Positions 10,392 to 34,254 of a stretch of DNA of 34,254 nt are shown here, piece after piece. Source of the DNA: Natronomonas sp. CBA1123 (lineage in GTDB: Archaea > Halobacteriota > Halobacteria > Halobacteriales > Haloarculaceae); contig NZ_WPCC01000034.1 in assembly GCF_009741925.1 (NCBI RefSeq), positions 1 to 34,254 of the forward strand, in the 5' to 3' direction. The notes beneath the pieces were generated by a model. The model searched no databases, was not told the DNA's origin, and saw only the letters and a list, made by a program, of their open reading frames with translations. Both the position numbers and the translations under genes were made by a program. Position 1 is the stretch's first letter, and every line of letters begins with the position of its first letter.

Positions 10392-11360
10392 TTACATGTA
10401 GCCGAGGTCCCGAAGGCGCTCCATCAGGTCCTCTTTGTCCTGTGCGCGGCCGGCGCGCTCGGTGGTGTTGTCGAGGTCCTGCAGCCACGCGGGCTCTTCG
10501 TCCGATTTCTCCGTCGAAATCTCGCTGCCGAGCGAGCGGAAGCCGGCGAAGTACTTCGGCGAGACGGGGATGTCGGCATGTGTGAGGTCGTTCGGCAGGT
10601 CGTCGTAGTCCTGCGGGACGTAGCCGTCGTCGGGGAATTCGGGAACCGTCTCGGGGACGACGTAGAACCAGAAGGCGTCCCACACGTCGGCCTCGTCGAA
10701 CTGCAGAATCGGCTGGATGCGGTCGTGGGGCGGGTAGATGTCGGGGTCGTGTCGCGGCGAGAAGAACGTCTCGTCGGCGCGGGCTTCCTGTTCGTCCCAG
10801 CGGATGCCCGAGATGATGCCGTCGATGTCGTGTTCTTCGAGGGCGCTGTTCAGCGCGACGGTCTTCAGCAGGTGGTTGCCGACGTAGGTGTCCAGCAGGA
10901 ACGGGAACGTGTCCTCCTCGTATTCGAGGATGTTCCGGACGTGGTGTTGATTGTTCTCGTCGAGGTCCTCGATGGGGATGTCGTCGCCCGGCGTGAGGTC
11001 GTGTTCCTCGACGTAGGCGCCGATGTCCTCGTTTCGCGCGAAGATGACCTCGAGGTCCCACTCCTCGGCCCAGCGGTCGACGAAGTCGAGCAGCTCGTCG
11101 AAGTGCTGGTAGTGGTCGATGAACACCGCCGGCGGGAGGTCGTAGCCGTACTGCTCGGCGACCTCCTTCACGAAGTACAGCGTGAGCGTCGAGTCCTTCC
11201 CACCGGTCCACATGATGGCGGGGTTCTCGTACTCTTCGAGCCCCGTCTTGACGACCTCGATGGCCTTCTCGATTTTGTCCTGAATGCTCGGGTAGTCCTC
11301 GGGGTCTTCGCCTTCGCCGTCGGTGTAATCAACGTCGACGTACTCCGGGAATTCGCTCAT
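10392..11360 (-). CDS. CysD-like PP-loop protein (PAPS reductase / ATP sulfurylase small-subunit family)
   Basis: Cytoplasmic adenylylating enzyme family member (322 aa). The PP-loop reads WTGGKDST (residues 51-58), binding the ATP pyrophosphate. The C-terminal segment FRSLGSEISTE, followed by TTERAGR and a closing RLRDLGYM, parallels the C-terminus of CysD (sulfate adenylyltransferase subunit 2) rather than of CysH. It lacks the CysH C-terminal Cys motif. No cysN, cysC or sulfite reductase gene is present in the window, so a complete sulfate-activation operon is not seen. The protein may act on another sulfur or nucleotide substrate. A minus-strand CCTTTACG (11387-11394) and a palindrome at 11365-11374 form the promoter region. 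Confidence 0.88.
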   Translation of the reverse strand: MSEFPEYVDVDYTDGEGEDPEDYPSIQDKIEKAIEVVKTGLEEYENPAIMWTGGKDSTLTLYFVKEVAEQYGYDLPPAVFIDHYQHFDELLDFVDRWAEEWDLEVIFARNEDIGAYVEEHDLTPGDDIPIEDLDENNQHHVRNILEYEEDTFPFLLDTYVGNHLLKTVALNSALEEHDIDGIISGIRWDEQEARADETFFSPRHDPDIYPPHDRIQPILQFDEADVWDAFWFYVVPETVPEFPDDGYVPQDYDDLPNDLTHADIPVSPKYFAGFRSLGSEISTEKSDEEPAWLQDLDNTTERAGRAQDKEDLMERLRDLGYM

Positions 11361-15221: not shown

Positions 15222-16373
15222 TTAGATACCGATTCCGTCGTCGGTTTCCGTCGGCGTTGCCGTCTCCGATTCCGTTGCCGGCTCCTCCGTCACCGGGGTG
15301 GGCGTCTCGAGGACACCGTCATCGGTGGGTGTCGGCGTCGTCGCGGGCGTCGGTGTGCCGTCACTCGGTGTTGGCGTTGGCGTCGACTGGCTCCCGTTCG
15401 GTGCCGTACTCGCGTTCTTGTTGCCGAAGATGTCCGTCTCGATAGTCTCCCTGTAGGTGAGTTCGTCCAGCGGGACGCGAACGTCGGAGACGAGTTCCTC
15501 GCCGGAGACCACCGCGTAGAACTCGATTTTGAGTTGCGTGCGCTGGTCGTTCTGGAGGTGCGTGACCCACCACTCGTCGAGGTTCCCGTTGATGATGGCA
15601 GCGTCGGTCCGAACCGTCTCGGTCGCCCCGGGCGGAATGGCAGCGATGTCCTCGGTTTGGCCCTCCCCGACCAACACGCCGTTCATCGTTATCTCGTAGC
15701 CGAGCTCCGAAATCGTGTACGGGAAAGTTTGGGGGTTGTACAACTGGAACGCCATGTCGATAGGCGTCTCCTCGCGGGTGACGGTCCCCCAGTCGGCGCT
15801 GGTCCGGTTGACGTACAACACCGGGTTCGACATGACCGGCGGCGGGTCGTCGGCGTTCACCGGCCGCGTCTCCTCGGAGTTGAACTGCCCGATGAGGTCC
15901 GTCTCGACCTCCCGCTCCTGTGTGATGTCGAACTGCCGTTCGCCGAGTATCGACGTTTGGACCGTCGCGTTGATGGTGACGACGGTCCGCTCGCCGTTCT
16001 CGACGTGGGTCCGCCACCACGGCGGAATCTGTTCGTTGTCCATCGCCGTCTGGAAGGCCAGCGTCGAGTTGCCCTGTTCGAGGTCGACACCCGTCCGGTT
16101 GCCCTCGGCTATCGGCACGCCGTTCATCCCGACGGTGTAGTTGATGGTCGTGTTGCCGAGTTGGATGTCGATGGGGTTGGGGTTGTTCACGACGAGGTCG
16201 GTGTGGATAATCGTTGTCTCGTCGGTCACGTCGCCGAACCGGTTGTCGACGCCCTCGACGGTCGGGGCGCCGACGGCGCCGAGTGCGACCGCGCCGACGA
16301 GCAACGCGACGACGACGCCGAGAACCGCGGCAGCGATTTTCAGTTTGCCGAACGCGAGAATGCCGGACGCCAT
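15222..16373 (-). CDS. LEA type 2 / WHy-domain membrane-anchored protein
   Basis: Extracytoplasmic protein (383 aa) anchored by an N-terminal helix (about residues 12-35). Two successive LEA2/WHy-type beta domains follow. Each has the NP-rich strand pattern: VVNNPNPIDIQLGNTTINY in the first and QLYNPQTFPYTISELGYEI in the second, with the repeated element of a named variable, MNGV, next to each. WHy domains are tied to desiccation and stress tolerance in plants and bacteria. The tail (about 325-383) is Thr/Pro/Glu-rich with TPTP repeats, like a cell-surface stalk that may be glycosylated. Several NxT/S sequons are present. It is tail-to-tail with the PhoU gene. Confidence 0.82.
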   Translation of the reverse strand: MASGILAFGKLKIAAAVLGVVVALLVGAVALGAVGAPTVEGVDNRFGDVTDETTIIHTDLVVNNPNPIDIQLGNTTINYTVGMNGVPIAEGNRTGVDLEQGNSTLAFQTAMDNEQIPPWWRTHVENGERTVVTINATVQTSILGERQFDITQEREVETDLIGQFNSEETRPVNADDPPPVMSNPVLYVNRTSADWGTVTREETPIDMAFQLYNPQTFPYTISELGYEITMNGVLVGEGQTEDIAAIPPGATETVRTDAAIINGNLDEWWVTHLQNDQRTQLKIEFYAVVSGEELVSDVRVPLDELTYRETIETDIFGNKNASTAPNGSQSTPTPTPSDGTPTPATTPTPTDDGVLETPTPVTEEPATESETATPTETDDGIGI

Positions 16374-28189: not shown

Positions 28190-29002
28190 TCAGGCGGCCA
28201 GCTTCTCGATTTCGCCCTTGACGAGCGCGCCGTCGAAGTCGTGGTCCGGCCGCATCTTCACGAAGTCGAGGAACTCCCGAGCGGCGAGCAGTTGCTCCGC
28301 CGAGTAGAATTCGCTGGCCGCCTCAACGGCCACCGTCGCGCCGATGTGTGGCGCCAGCGACGCCAGCGCACACGCGAGGTCGTAGGCCGTCGCGTCCTCG
28401 ATTGCTTCCGCCCGAACCCGGGTCGCGTCGATGAAGTACAGCGCCTCCTCGCCGTCCTCGTCGGGTGCGACGAGGACGTTCTCCTCGCGTAAGTCGCCGT
28501 GGGCGAGGCCCGCCTCGTGCATCCGCGAGAGGTTCTCGAACAGTTCGGGCGCGAACGACTCCGCCTCCTCGGGAGGCAGTTCGTCGAGCGTCCGAAACGA
28601 GGGGAGATACTCCAAAACGAGGACGCCGAAACCGTCGTGTTCGAACGCCTCGATGGGGACGGGGGCGTTGATGCCGAGTTCGTGCATCCGACTCGTCGAT
28701 TCCAGTTCGTGTTCAGCCATCTCGTAGGGCGTCGAGAAGCGCTCGAAGAACCCCTCGGTGCCCGACGAGAAGGCACCGAGGTTCCGCCCTGTAGTCAACA
28801 GGCCGTGAAGCAGGGTGTGTTGGTCGGCGATGACCTTCACGAACCATTGCTCGTTGACGACGAGCGGGACCGACAGCCAGTTGTCGGCATCCAGCGACTC
28901 GTACTCCGCCGACGACTCCCCGTAGCGGGTCGCAACCTCCTCGGCGACCGCTTCCAACGCCGAATCCGGGACGGTCGCCTTGAGGAGTCGTCGGAATGCC
29001 AT
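28190..29002 (-). CDS. RIO1-like protein kinase
   Basis: Cytoplasmic kinase-like protein (270 aa). The catalytic loop HGDLREENVLV (Asp base, Asn metal ligand) and a following metal-binding FIDATR (in place of DFG) match RIO-type and Bud32-like kinases; these lack the canonical activation loop. An N-terminal WFVKVI strand supplies the ATP-site lysine. The tail (VKMRPDHDFDGALVKGEIEKL) is helical. The family acts in ribosome maturation. It is shorter than eukaryotic RIO1, as usual in archaea. A minus-strand ATTTATC at 29028-29034 is 29 nt upstream. Could also belong to a haloarchaeal RIO subgroup of unknown target. Confidence 0.85.
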   Translation of the reverse strand: MAFRRLLKATVPDSALEAVAEEVATRYGESSAEYESLDADNWLSVPLVVNEQWFVKVIADQHTLLHGLLTTGRNLGAFSSGTEGFFERFSTPYEMAEHELESTSRMHELGINAPVPIEAFEHDGFGVLVLEYLPSFRTLDELPPEEAESFAPELFENLSRMHEAGLAHGDLREENVLVAPDEDGEEALYFIDATRVRAEAIEDATAYDLACALASLAPHIGATVAVEAASEFYSAEQLLAAREFLDFVKMRPDHDFDGALVKGEIEKLAA

Positions 29003-31849: not shown

Positions 31850-31900
31850 ATGACCGACGCATTCGACTCTTTCGTTCGGAGGGGGATACATGGGTGTTGA
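31850..31900 (+). CDS. Possible leader peptide ORF (16 aa)
   Basis: Reads MTDAFDSFVRRGIHGC and ends 11 nt inside the HD-domain gene, in another frame. Its ATG lies about 29 nt after the CCTAAAG element (31816-31822), the normal distance for a leaderless start, so a ribosome would meet this ORF first. It spans the ribosome-binding site of the HD gene. Translation not proven. Confidence 0.35.
   Translation: MTDAFDSFVRRGIHGC
31878..31882 (+). promoter_or_regulatory. Ribosome-binding site of the HD-domain gene
   Basis: GGAGG with 7 nt to the ATG at 31890. This is unusual here, where most genes look leaderless, and it decides the start. It lies inside the 16-codon ORF at 31850-31900. Confidence 0.6.
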
Positions 31901-32588
31901 AATCAGGGAATCGCCCGTCTCCGATGACGAGTTCGAGGAGATGAAGCAGTTCGTCCACGATTACCTCGCGGCGAGCGTCGAGGGCGAAGACGAGGGCGGA
32001 CGGATGCGGTGGTACCCGTGGCACTCCGCGGAGTACCGGTACAACCACATCCTCAACGTGACCGAACTCGCCATCGAAATCGCCGAAAAGGAAGGGGCAA
32101 ACGTCGACGTGACCCGTGTCGCGTCGCTGTTTCACGACATCGCGAAACTCGAAGCCGACCAGGACGTCCACGCCGAGGCGGGCGCCCGCGTCGCCCGCGA
32201 GTACCTCCGCTCGCGGACCGACTACCCCGAATCGTTCATCGAGCAGGTGTGTGACGCCGTCGAGACCCACTCCTACGAGGGTGACCTCGAGAACGTCCCA
32301 CTGGAGACCCAGTGTCTCATGGAAGCCGACCTACTCGACAAGGTCGGCGCCAACGGGACGACGCTGATGTTGCTTCGGATGGGCTATGAGGCCCGGACCC
32401 ACATGGACGCAAACGAGATGGTCGGACGCGTCCTCGAACGCGGCGAGGACGCCATCTCCCGGGTCCGGTCGGACACCGCCGAGAGCATCGCCCACCAGCG
32501 CATCAAGCGCGTTCGGTGGTTCAAGGAGTGGCTCGAAGGCGAAATCGCCGAGATGGAGCCGCCGGACCCCGACGCCGACCTCTTATAA
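31890..32588 (+). CDS. HD-domain phosphohydrolase
   Basis: Cytoplasmic metal-dependent phosphohydrolase (232 aa). The HD metal site is visible: H53 in YNHILNV, H82-D83 in LFHDIAKLE, a histidine in VETHSYEGD, and a distal Asp in EADLLDKVGA. This is the H...HD...D order of the family. Its LFHDIAK and LMEADLLDKVGA motifs are close to a group of archaeal HD proteins annotated as hydrolases of unknown nucleotide substrates. It has a ribosome-binding site and an overlapping short upstream ORF, so translation may be coupled. Its stop overlaps the convergent LysE gene by 6 nt. Confidence 0.9.
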   Translation: MGVEIRESPVSDDEFEEMKQFVHDYLAASVEGEDEGGRMRWYPWHSAEYRYNHILNVTELAIEIAEKEGANVDVTRVASLFHDIAKLEADQDVHAEAGARVAREYLRSRTDYPESFIEQVCDAVETHSYEGDLENVPLETQCLMEADLLDKVGANGTTLMLLRMGYEARTHMDANEMVGRVLERGEDAISRVRSDTAESIAHQRIKRVRWFKEWLEGEIAEMEPPDPDADLL

Positions 32589-33248
32589 AAGGAGGGCGTC
32601 GGCGAGGAAGTACACGCCGAACCCCGCGAGGACGGCCGCACTCCCGTAGGCGATAGCCGGCGCCAGCGACTCCATCCGCTGGCGGGCGGCCGTCAGCGTC
32701 GCGGGAAAGCCGGTTATCCAGATACCGATACCGCCGAACAGCCCGGCGAGCAAGACCGGACTCCCGGTCTCGACGACGACGAGGCCAGCCAGCGCCTCGC
32801 TGGCGTAGGACAGCACGTCGACGGTGCCGGGTGTCAGAAGCGCCGTGCCCGCTGTGACCCAGAACAGTATCTGATAGGGATTCGTCAACGCGAGGACGAA
32901 CGCCTTCGAGAAGCCACGGCTATCCTCGTCGCCGGGCGTCTCGGCGGCCCGAAAGCTCTCCTGTGCGCCGCGGGCGGCGCCGTAGGCGAAATACAGCATC
33001 AACAGCCCACCGACCCCGACCATGGCCGACTGGAGCGTCGGCATCTCCTCGATGGCGGCGACGACGCCGAGCAGCGCCAACCCGAGGAAGACGGCGTCGG
33101 CGGTCATCGCGCCCAATCCGGCGCGGAACCCGGCGGTCCACCCCCGCAGGACCGATTCCTCGGCGATGACGGCGTTCATCGGCCCCGGTGGCGCCGCCAA
33201 CGCCAACCCGAACAACACGCCCGCCGAAAGCGTCGAAAGGAGGGTCAT
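32583..33248 (-). CDS. LysE-family amino-acid exporter
   Basis: Membrane exporter (221 aa) of basic or neutral amino acids, or related solutes. Six hydrophobic segments are visible; the first carries the family motif ALAAPPGPMNAVI, and the LTNPYQILFWVTAG segment matches the conserved NP of helix 4. RxG-type polar loops separate the halves. The promoter (33271-33279) is flanked by a perfect 8-bp inverted repeat (33260-33267, 33283-33290), pointing to a dedicated regulator. Its transported substrate is not deducible. Confidence 0.9.
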   Translation of the reverse strand: MTLLSTLSAGVLFGLALAAPPGPMNAVIAEESVLRGWTAGFRAGLGAMTADAVFLGLALLGVVAAIEEMPTLQSAMVGVGGLLMLYFAYGAARGAQESFRAAETPGDEDSRGFSKAFVLALTNPYQILFWVTAGTALLTPGTVDVLSYASEALAGLVVVETGSPVLLAGLFGGIGIWITGFPATLTAARQRMESLAPAIAYGSAAVLAGFGVYFLADALLL

Positions 33249-33343: not shown

Positions 33344-34254
33344 CTACATTCCCCGACCCATCAGCCGACTGCGGACGATGTCGGCGTCCTTGTTTCCGGT
33401 TCCCGTGTTGAGGAGGACGACGGTGTCGTCGGAATCGAAGGCGCCGTCATCCGCGAGGTCCCACGCGCCCGCGGCGGCCGCTCCGCAGGCGACGCTGACC
33501 TCCAGTCCCTCGTGTTGGGCGACCGTCGCCGCGCTGTCCAGCAGGTCCTCGTCGTCGACGGCGACGCCCGACCCGCCACTTGCCCGGATGGCCTCAACGG
33601 CTGGCAGTCCGCCAGCAGGGTCGGGCACTTCGAGGCTCCCGACGACGGTGTCGGGGTACTCCCACGGTTCGGGGTCGTCGCCGCTTTCGACGGCCTCGAC
33701 GACGGGCGCACAGCCGTCCGGTTGGGCCGCGTACAGACGGGGCGTCCCGTCGACGAGGCCGAGTTCGTCGAACTCCCGGGCACCCTTCCAGAGCCCCGAG
33801 ACGGTCGCCCCGTGGCCGACCGGCACGACGACGGCGTCCGGAGCGGTCCACTCGAGGTCCGCGGCGAGTTCGTGGTACACCGATTTCATCCCCTCGTGGC
33901 GGAACGGCGAGTCGAATGCGGCGGCGGGGAACCACTCCTCTTCGTCGGCCGCGGGCAGTTCCTCGCGTTCGCGCTCGTAGGTCTCGCGGGCGTCGTCGAA
34001 GCGCCCCTCGACGACGCGCATGTCGCCGCCGTGGACGTTTATCATCGCCTTGTTGATGAAGTTCGCACGGCTGGGGACGAACACCCGCGAGAGCAAGCCG
34101 GCGCGGGCCGCGTAGGCCGCAGCGGACTGTCCACCGTTGCCCGTCGTCGGCAGGGCGAGCGTGTCGGCGTCGGCCCGGCGGGCGGCCTCGGCGACGACGG
34201 CGAGGCCGCGGTCGGTCACCGTCCCCGTCGGGTTGTGCGCCTCGTTTTTGATGT
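33344..34254 (-). CDS. Threonine-synthase-like PLP-fold protein, C-terminal part, lysine missing (5' end outside window)
   Basis: Fold-type II protein of the threonine synthase/serine dehydratase group; the N-terminus lies beyond the window. The frame is open to the last base: IKNEAHNPTGTVTDRGLAVVA stands where functional enzymes have KxExxxPTGSFKDRG. The Schiff-base lysine is thus replaced by threonine. The phosphate-binding loop TGNGGQSAAAYA and the C-terminal STGTGNKD-like LNTGTGNKD are kept. Without the lysine, normal PLP chemistry is not expected, so the protein may have another role. The GTG at 34219 is not the start. No companion Thr/Ile pathway gene is in the window. Confidence 0.85.
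   Translation of the reverse strand, partial: IKNEAHNPTGTVTDRGLAVVAEAARRADADTLALPTTGNGGQSAAAYAARAGLLSRVFVPSRANFINKAMINVHGGDMRVVEGRFDDARETYEREREELPAADEEEWFPAAAFDSPFRHEGMKSVYHELAADLEWTAPDAVVVPVGHGATVSGLWKGAREFDELGLVDGTPRLYAAQPDGCAPVVEAVESGDDPEPWEYPDTVVGSLEVPDPAGGLPAVEAIRASGGSGVAVDDEDLLDSAATVAQHEGLEVSVACGAAAAGAWDLADDGAFDSDDTVVLLNTGTGNKDADIVRSRLMGRGM

Follow-up and report, generated by a model that had tools for sequence, protein, structure and literature searches.

Among described proteins, the one that most resembles the haloarchaeal protein considered here is threonine synthase (ThrC; TIGR00260, NF006050/PRK08197). The two share a fold, a four-cysteine N-terminal domain, and many motifs on the substrate side of the pocket, and ThrC supplies the closest solved structures. 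They differ in that the haloarchaeal protein lacks the Schiff-base lysine and the phosphate loop, and a near-identical protein from Natronomonas gomsonensis falls below both curated cut-offs. The nearest published concept that we found is the plant TSB-like protein, a relative of tryptophan synthase beta that, in the accessible part of its description, is a pseudoenzyme and an allosteric activator of TSA (PMC12727527). The same text confines it to core eudicots and traces it to a gene duplicate that underwent two residue changes, E190 and D386. It is similar to the haloarchaeal family in being a relative of fold-type-II PLP enzymes that lost its activity and was kept for another role; it is unlike the haloarchaeal family in that the latter appears to have lost the lysine and the phosphate loop, many times and partly at the same locus. 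PDX1.2, a pseudoenzyme of vitamin B6 synthesis, is likewise a relative without catalytic function that persists next to active members, as far as the accessible text goes (PMC6829848). The tryptophan synthase beta mutant K87T (PDB 2tys) has the same fold and carries a Lys-to-Thr exchange at the Schiff-base lysine, but it was made in the laboratory from an active enzyme and does not stand for a natural family. We take the chemistry of K87T to be that of a stable external aldimine, and we take PDX1.2 to differ from the haloarchaeal protein in fold and pathway. To our knowledge, pseudoenzymes have mostly been described as single events after duplication.

Has such a loss been noticed in haloarchaea? 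Judged by titles and the openings of abstracts, searches of the literature on haloarchaeal threonine synthase and on PLP or haloarchaeal pseudoenzymes turned up no description of a lost lysine or pocket. A transposon mutant of Haloferax volcanii thrC3 had its growth restored by threonine, glycine, and serine, according to the part of the report available (PMC4300041). The available part of PMC12172450 deals with a ThrC that also deaminates threonine and is not a lysine-less case, and a term search of the text available for PMC10211241 returned neither PLP nor pyridoxal.

A ThrC-like gene and its altered pocket

The gene lies at one end of the window, the whole stretch of 34,254 nucleotides analysed, which is contig C46 of the draft genome of Natronomonas sp. 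CBA1123. Its 3' part, residues 91-392 and the stop, occupies 33344..34254 of the minus strand, with the stop at 33344-33346 and the frame open at the contig end; these last 302 residues read IKNEAHNPTGTVTDRG.... Another contig of the genome, C37, carries the first 90 residues. Window positions 33964-34254 are identical over 291 bases to C37:1-291 (copy L039), the gene being split over two overlapping contigs that the assembly left unjoined. Completed from C37, where the ATG is at position 559, the full gene encodes 392 amino acids. The protein begins with a four-cysteine, zinc-ribbon-like N terminus, for which the nearest Pfam domain in the N. gomsonensis protein is RUBY_RBDX, just under the cut-off. 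That protein (L059) is the closest named relative among the matches listed, with 98.7% identity over the window part. The window part itself matches PF00291 (PALP, fold type II) with 200.1 bits against a cut-off of 35.

In PLP enzymes, the Schiff-base lysine sits in the motif NPTG[ST]FKDRG. Aligned to this site is NPTGTVTDRG (34205..34234, minus strand), and the codon of Thr103 (34214..34216, minus strand) stands at the position of the lysine, which 113 of 248 relatives possess, as do all 20 canonical ThrC genes checked as a control. An earlier note on this DNA had placed a threonine here, correctly: phmmer aligns Thr103 with Lys69 of Mycobacterium tuberculosis ThrC and Lys61 of Thermus ThrC. 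With the Schiff-base lysine gone from the sequence, normal catalysis would not be expected, as the note had also suggested. Its account of the phosphate loop needs revision. The motif GNGGQSAAAY, which it took for that loop, is indeed kept, but it aligns with the STGN (Asn) loop of ThrC, represented here by PTTGNGGQSAAAY (34112..34150, minus strand) and by SAGNAGQ in the lysine-bearing relatives. The true phosphate loop is PVGHGATVSG (33794..33823, minus strand), in which Gly237 has become His; the corresponding sequence is PTGGGVGLVG in lysine-bearing relatives and PVGNAGN in canonical ThrC. The roles assigned to the two loops are those we assume for fold type II enzymes from knowledge of the family. 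Compared with ThrC, the window protein therefore keeps the PALP domain and has Thr103 in place of the lysine and GHGAT in place of a glycine-rich loop; judged by alignment, the covalent and the phosphate anchors of PLP are both gone.

A further segment, FINKAMINVHGG (34025..34060, minus strand), is kept whatever the state of the lysine, with Lys158 in 112/113 lysine-bearing and 134/135 lysine-less sequences. The segment SPFRHEGMK (33884..33910, minus strand) includes position 212, which is Lys in 106/113 lysine-bearing versus 1/135 lysine-less sequences, and Arg208, which is found in 132/135 lysine-less sequences (it is missing from two Halarchaeum sequences and one other). Arg208 aligns with Arg160 of Thermus ThrC, presumably a ligand of the substrate phosphate. 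Near the C terminus, NTGTGNKD (33386..33409, minus strand) lies at the position of the ThrC motif TGxGxKD.

Could the missing lysine be an error of assembly or reading? This was ruled out by orthologues from the same genus. Eighteen were fetched, one of them identical to the N. gomsonensis protein, and all 17 that cover the site are without the lysine (12 Thr, 2 Val, 2 Ala, 1 Leu). Orthologues thus share the absence of the lysine in full and the threonine itself in 12 of 17. The 291-base contig overlap agrees with the missing lysine, as evidence that is not independent. More distant, lysine-bearing paralogues occur in six genomes of the genus. What about a lysine elsewhere taking over? A comparison of the lysines in 65 lysine-less and 62 lysine-bearing sequences found no replacement or shifted Schiff-base lysine: those present in more than 30% of the lysine-less sequences (positions 92, 158, 213, 246, and 378) are equally common or commoner in the lysine-bearing ones. 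A separate, normal thrC with its lysine, for which the earlier note had proposed to look, is present in the same genome (G000:C47:9801-11111), which is one of the 58 of 60 genomes in which canonical ThrC was found.

Lysine-bearing and lysine-less relatives

The survey comprised 248 distinct haloarchaeal sequences, 72 and 175 from two genome sets plus the window protein. The relatives are a sample, including 80 of 295 from the first set and, from the profile listing, 100 beyond the 30 given as loci. Identical sequences, sequences more than 99.5% alike, four outgroup sequences, and L158 had been dropped, as had those of fewer than 340 residues (L021, L023, L065, L066, and the partial window copies L005, L009, and L039). 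The lysine is present in 113 of the 248 and absent from 135, in which its place is taken by Leu (36), Thr (30), Ala (27), Val (10), Arg (10), Gly (8), Phe (4), Asp (4), Glu (2), or by Gln, Ser, Ile, or Tyr (1 each). By genome (161, from 75 genera), the sequences fetched are lysine-bearing only in 54, lysine-less only in 84, and of both kinds in 23, where "lysine-less only" genomes may hold unseen lysine-bearing copies and the reverse. Across an archaeal class, enzyme-like and non-enzyme-like forms of one family thus alternate; close sisters can differ in state, and some genomes carry both. The group is tractable, and the alternation allows a direct test of why a protein persists after its catalysis has gone. 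Nine of the 113 lysine-bearing sequences have the motif NPTN, mostly from a separate paralogue group; L147-L149 and L151-L153 form such a lysine-bearing group, which has NPTNTFKDRG and occurs in some of the same genomes.

The lysine does not go alone. Gly237 of the phosphate loop is present in 110/113 lysine-bearing versus 3/135 lysine-less sequences, Ala127 in 109/113 versus 8/135, and Gly303 in 109/113 versus 0/135. Among the three lysine-less exceptions at position 237 is L088, which has a nearly intact loop, PTGGGVALVG. When 134 columns were tested on 8 independent pairs, 11 of them, position 103 included, changed with the lysine in at least 5 pairs on average, against 0.5 for the median column; columns 30 and 342 are outside the pocket list, yet change with it about as often as pocket columns do. 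Lysine with an altered pocket was seen in 4 of 245 sequences, L081, L111, and L209 of the Natrinema group and L032 of genome G029, so the lysine can stay or return. A protein identical to L032 occurs in Halomarina (L133).

Might PLP still be bound, without a covalent link? The lysine-less proteins would then be PLP carriers or hold a stable external aldimine, like the tryptophan synthase beta with the Lys-to-Thr exchange, whose solved structure (2tys) is among the fold matches. The Asn loop fits this idea to a degree, in that Asn129 is kept in 93/135 lysine-less sequences (112/113 lysine-bearing), a less clear-cut contrast than at the other positions. The phosphate loop does not, for Gly237 is replaced in 132/135 lysine-less sequences by His, Thr, Ser, Asp, Ala, Glu, Ile, and others, and acidic or bulky residues here should repel or block the PLP phosphate. 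We regard non-covalent PLP binding as improbable, and the earlier note's suggestion that the protein may bind PLP without the lysine becomes the less likely reading now that the true phosphate loop is seen to be lost.

The main rival is that the pocket was rebuilt to serve a new enzyme activity independent of PLP. Replacements do recur: among the 135 lysine-less sequences, 74 have Thr and 49 have Pro at position 127, 80 have Ala at position 212, and these replacements occur in separate lineages, which suggests that an emptied pocket was refilled in similar ways. Polar residues are retained too: Lys158, His164, Arg208, and Gln267 are each found in 132-135 of the 135 lysine-less sequences and Lys213 in 125. 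Lys92 is likewise found in at least 132. The central positions, however, are highly variable, which is easier to reconcile with a relaxed site than with a newly catalytic one. The entropy among lysine-less sequences is 2.85 bits in the lysine column and 2.75 bits at position 237 (97th and 95th percentiles of 330 columns), against 0.2 bits at position 237 in the lysine-bearing sequences. An unsystematic look at the lysine-less sequences noticed no new invariant catalytic residue. A new enzyme is, on balance, unlikely, though it deserves to be kept in mind.

How are such proteins annotated? The N. gomsonensis protein scores below both NCBIfam equivalog cut-offs (PRK08197, 284.2 versus 303; a second model, 146.1 versus 167.1), and the lysine-bearing L069 passes PRK08197 (386.1) and misses the second (163.0 versus 167.1). 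PRK08197 is passed by two of the three lysine-less proteins scanned, at 344.7 in Halococcus and at 343.7 in Haloglomus; the score is therefore independent of the lysine. Lysine-less proteins are therefore probably being annotated as "threonine synthase" enzymes, an NCBI cut-off for that name being passed by two of the three. Even the lysine-bearing members may not be threonine synthases. At positions 125-137 and 234-243 (window protein numbering), they have SAGNAGQ and GGGVG, which recall motifs that we associate with threonine/serine dehydratases, SAGNHAQ and GGGG.

Separate losses within the class

Patchiness of this sort could also come from one ancient paralogue that lost its lysine once and was then spread unevenly by differential gene loss, transfer, or gene conversion. 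Paralogy does occur, as the 23 genomes with both kinds of member attest. To the contrary, the trees place sequences of opposite state side by side. A maximum likelihood tree was made from 72 of the first 137 sequences with the pocket columns removed (those left out of the trees had been picked after the alignment was inspected); it left out 12 outgroup or long-branch sequences and those at least 80% identical to a kept one, 13 chosen sequences always being kept. In it, Haloglomus (Asp) is sister to a lysine-bearing relative (support 100/100), Halarchaeum (Asp) is sister to Halobacterium (99/94), two Halococcus sequences (Thr) join two lysine-bearing ones within a lysine-bearing group (99/93), and two Natrialbaceae archaea that differ in state are sisters (99/95). 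Deeper forks are partly without resolution. Still with the pocket columns left out, a single clade of lysine-less sequences was rejected by the AU test (p 1.4e-5), as was a clade of these plus three lysine-bearing sequences with altered pockets (p 5.1e-5).

Gene order and residue choice add to the case against a single loss. The same FAD-oxidoreductase gene lies upstream, on the opposite strand, in Halococcus, in Haloglomus, and in lysine-bearing members of their groups, so the pocket losses in these two probably happened in place; and the residues replacing the lysine differ between lineages. A one-time loss in an old paralogue accordingly seems very unlikely to us.

How many losses were there? 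A second tree (FastTree) covered 245 sequences, three long ones being omitted, and two outgroup sequences, with canonical ThrC as the root. By parsimony, the altered pocket requires 8 losses and 1 regain on this tree, rising to 12 losses with regain disfavoured, of which two lie on weak branches (support 12 and 59). Counted for the lysine itself, the figures are 8 losses plus 4 regains, rising to 21 losses with regain strongly disfavoured.

Retention and a possible role

If the chemistry is gone, is the gene on its way out? Decay in the lysine-less lineages, an already disfavoured idea, can point to dN/dS, which is somewhat higher in 8 close lysine-less pairs (0.096-0.295) than in 7 lysine-bearing ones (0.050-0.177) and indicates weaker constraint. 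Against it, none of the 248 sequences as extracted has an internal stop, and 55 same-genus pairs give dN/dS of 0.086-0.385 by a simple counting estimate. Each of the 145 class genomes, none less than 90% complete, matches the family profile with E 1e-75 or better, a level to which canonical ThrC may contribute matches, and 143 of them match it with 1.9e-126 or better. In both lysine groups alike, 42 columns reach 95% conservation or more. Decay is hardly credible on these numbers. Thirteen columns, including Gln132, Arg152, Met160, Cys271, and Arg384, are conserved in both groups and rare in 20 canonical ThrC proteins.

The fold appears intact as well. AlphaFold2 gives the N. gomsonensis protein a pLDDT of 93.0 and a pTM of 0.93, and the best structure match of the model is ThrC 2c2b (Z 47.0, rmsd 2.4 A over 383 residues), a lysine-bearing relative matching the same structure with Z 49.7. 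Two marks of a pseudoenzyme are thus found here, a missing catalytic residue in a predicted fold that is kept and purifying selection.

We hold, with moderate confidence and from sequence comparison, that this is a family of pseudoenzymes in which PLP chemistry was lost repeatedly and in parallel and whose retention is due to a PLP-independent function, probably the binding of a ligand or a regulatory one. The sequences show that the family descends from lysine-bearing, PLP-type proteins. In several separate haloarchaeal lineages, the Schiff-base lysine, the phosphate loop, and neighbouring pocket residues were then lost together, the gene meanwhile staying intact under purifying selection with its predicted fold unchanged. 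In a lysine-less protein, PLP chemistry would be gone and the usual PLP binding probably so; the PLP-independent function for which it was retained might, more tentatively, be common to the lysine-bearing members. What could that function be? Because Arg208 aligns with Arg160 of Thermus ThrC, the presumed phosphate ligand, our first guess is that an anionic ligand is bound without a cofactor in that half of the pocket which formerly took the substrate, where Arg208, Lys158, and mostly Lys213 are kept. With such binding, the likeliest function would be that of a sensor or partner protein of amino acid metabolism. Several observations speak against the pseudoenzyme reading: the four lysine-bearing sequences with an altered pocket, the three lysine-less ones that retain Gly237, the three that have lost Arg208, the weaker constraint in lysine-less pairs, the behaviour of columns 30 and 342, the weak support of some loss branches, and a neighbourhood that points to no pathway.

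A bolder version of the pseudoenzyme reading, which we offer as a possibility that falls somewhat short of probable, is that the ancestor was bifunctional, being both a PLP enzyme and the bearer of a PLP-independent role. Since it would be the second role that preserves the gene across the class, at least eight lineages could have shed the PLP half in parallel, partly at the same locus and partly with the same pocket replacements. If true, the family would be a natural replicate experiment in the passage from enzyme to non-enzyme.

Do neighbouring genes help? At the 67 loci compared, they indicate no pathway or partner, and no candidate partner enzyme of the TSB-like kind stood out. Just downstream of the gene, on the same strand, is a LysE-type translocator (32583..33248, minus strand); a LysE gene of the cluster to which it belongs lies at 5/67 loci, so the link is not a conserved one. 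An HD-domain protein (31890..32588, plus strand) is a syntenic neighbour at 20/67 loci, and the FAD oxidoreductase is found at 23/67; Natrialbaceae have other syntenic neighbours.

The window also encodes a PAPS-reductase-like protein (10392-11360), a LEA_2-domain protein (15222-16373), an HMG-CoA reductase with an additional N-terminal domain, PF25653 (21756-23375), and a small RIO-like kinase (28190-29002). At the opposite end, positions 1-468 hold the C-terminal part of the proteasome-activating nucleotidase Pan1. At about 151-180, around DPRHPPAPGRFDR, the protein departs over a few codons from what we take to be the usual one, DPAILRPGRFDR, as if two small frame shifts cancel.
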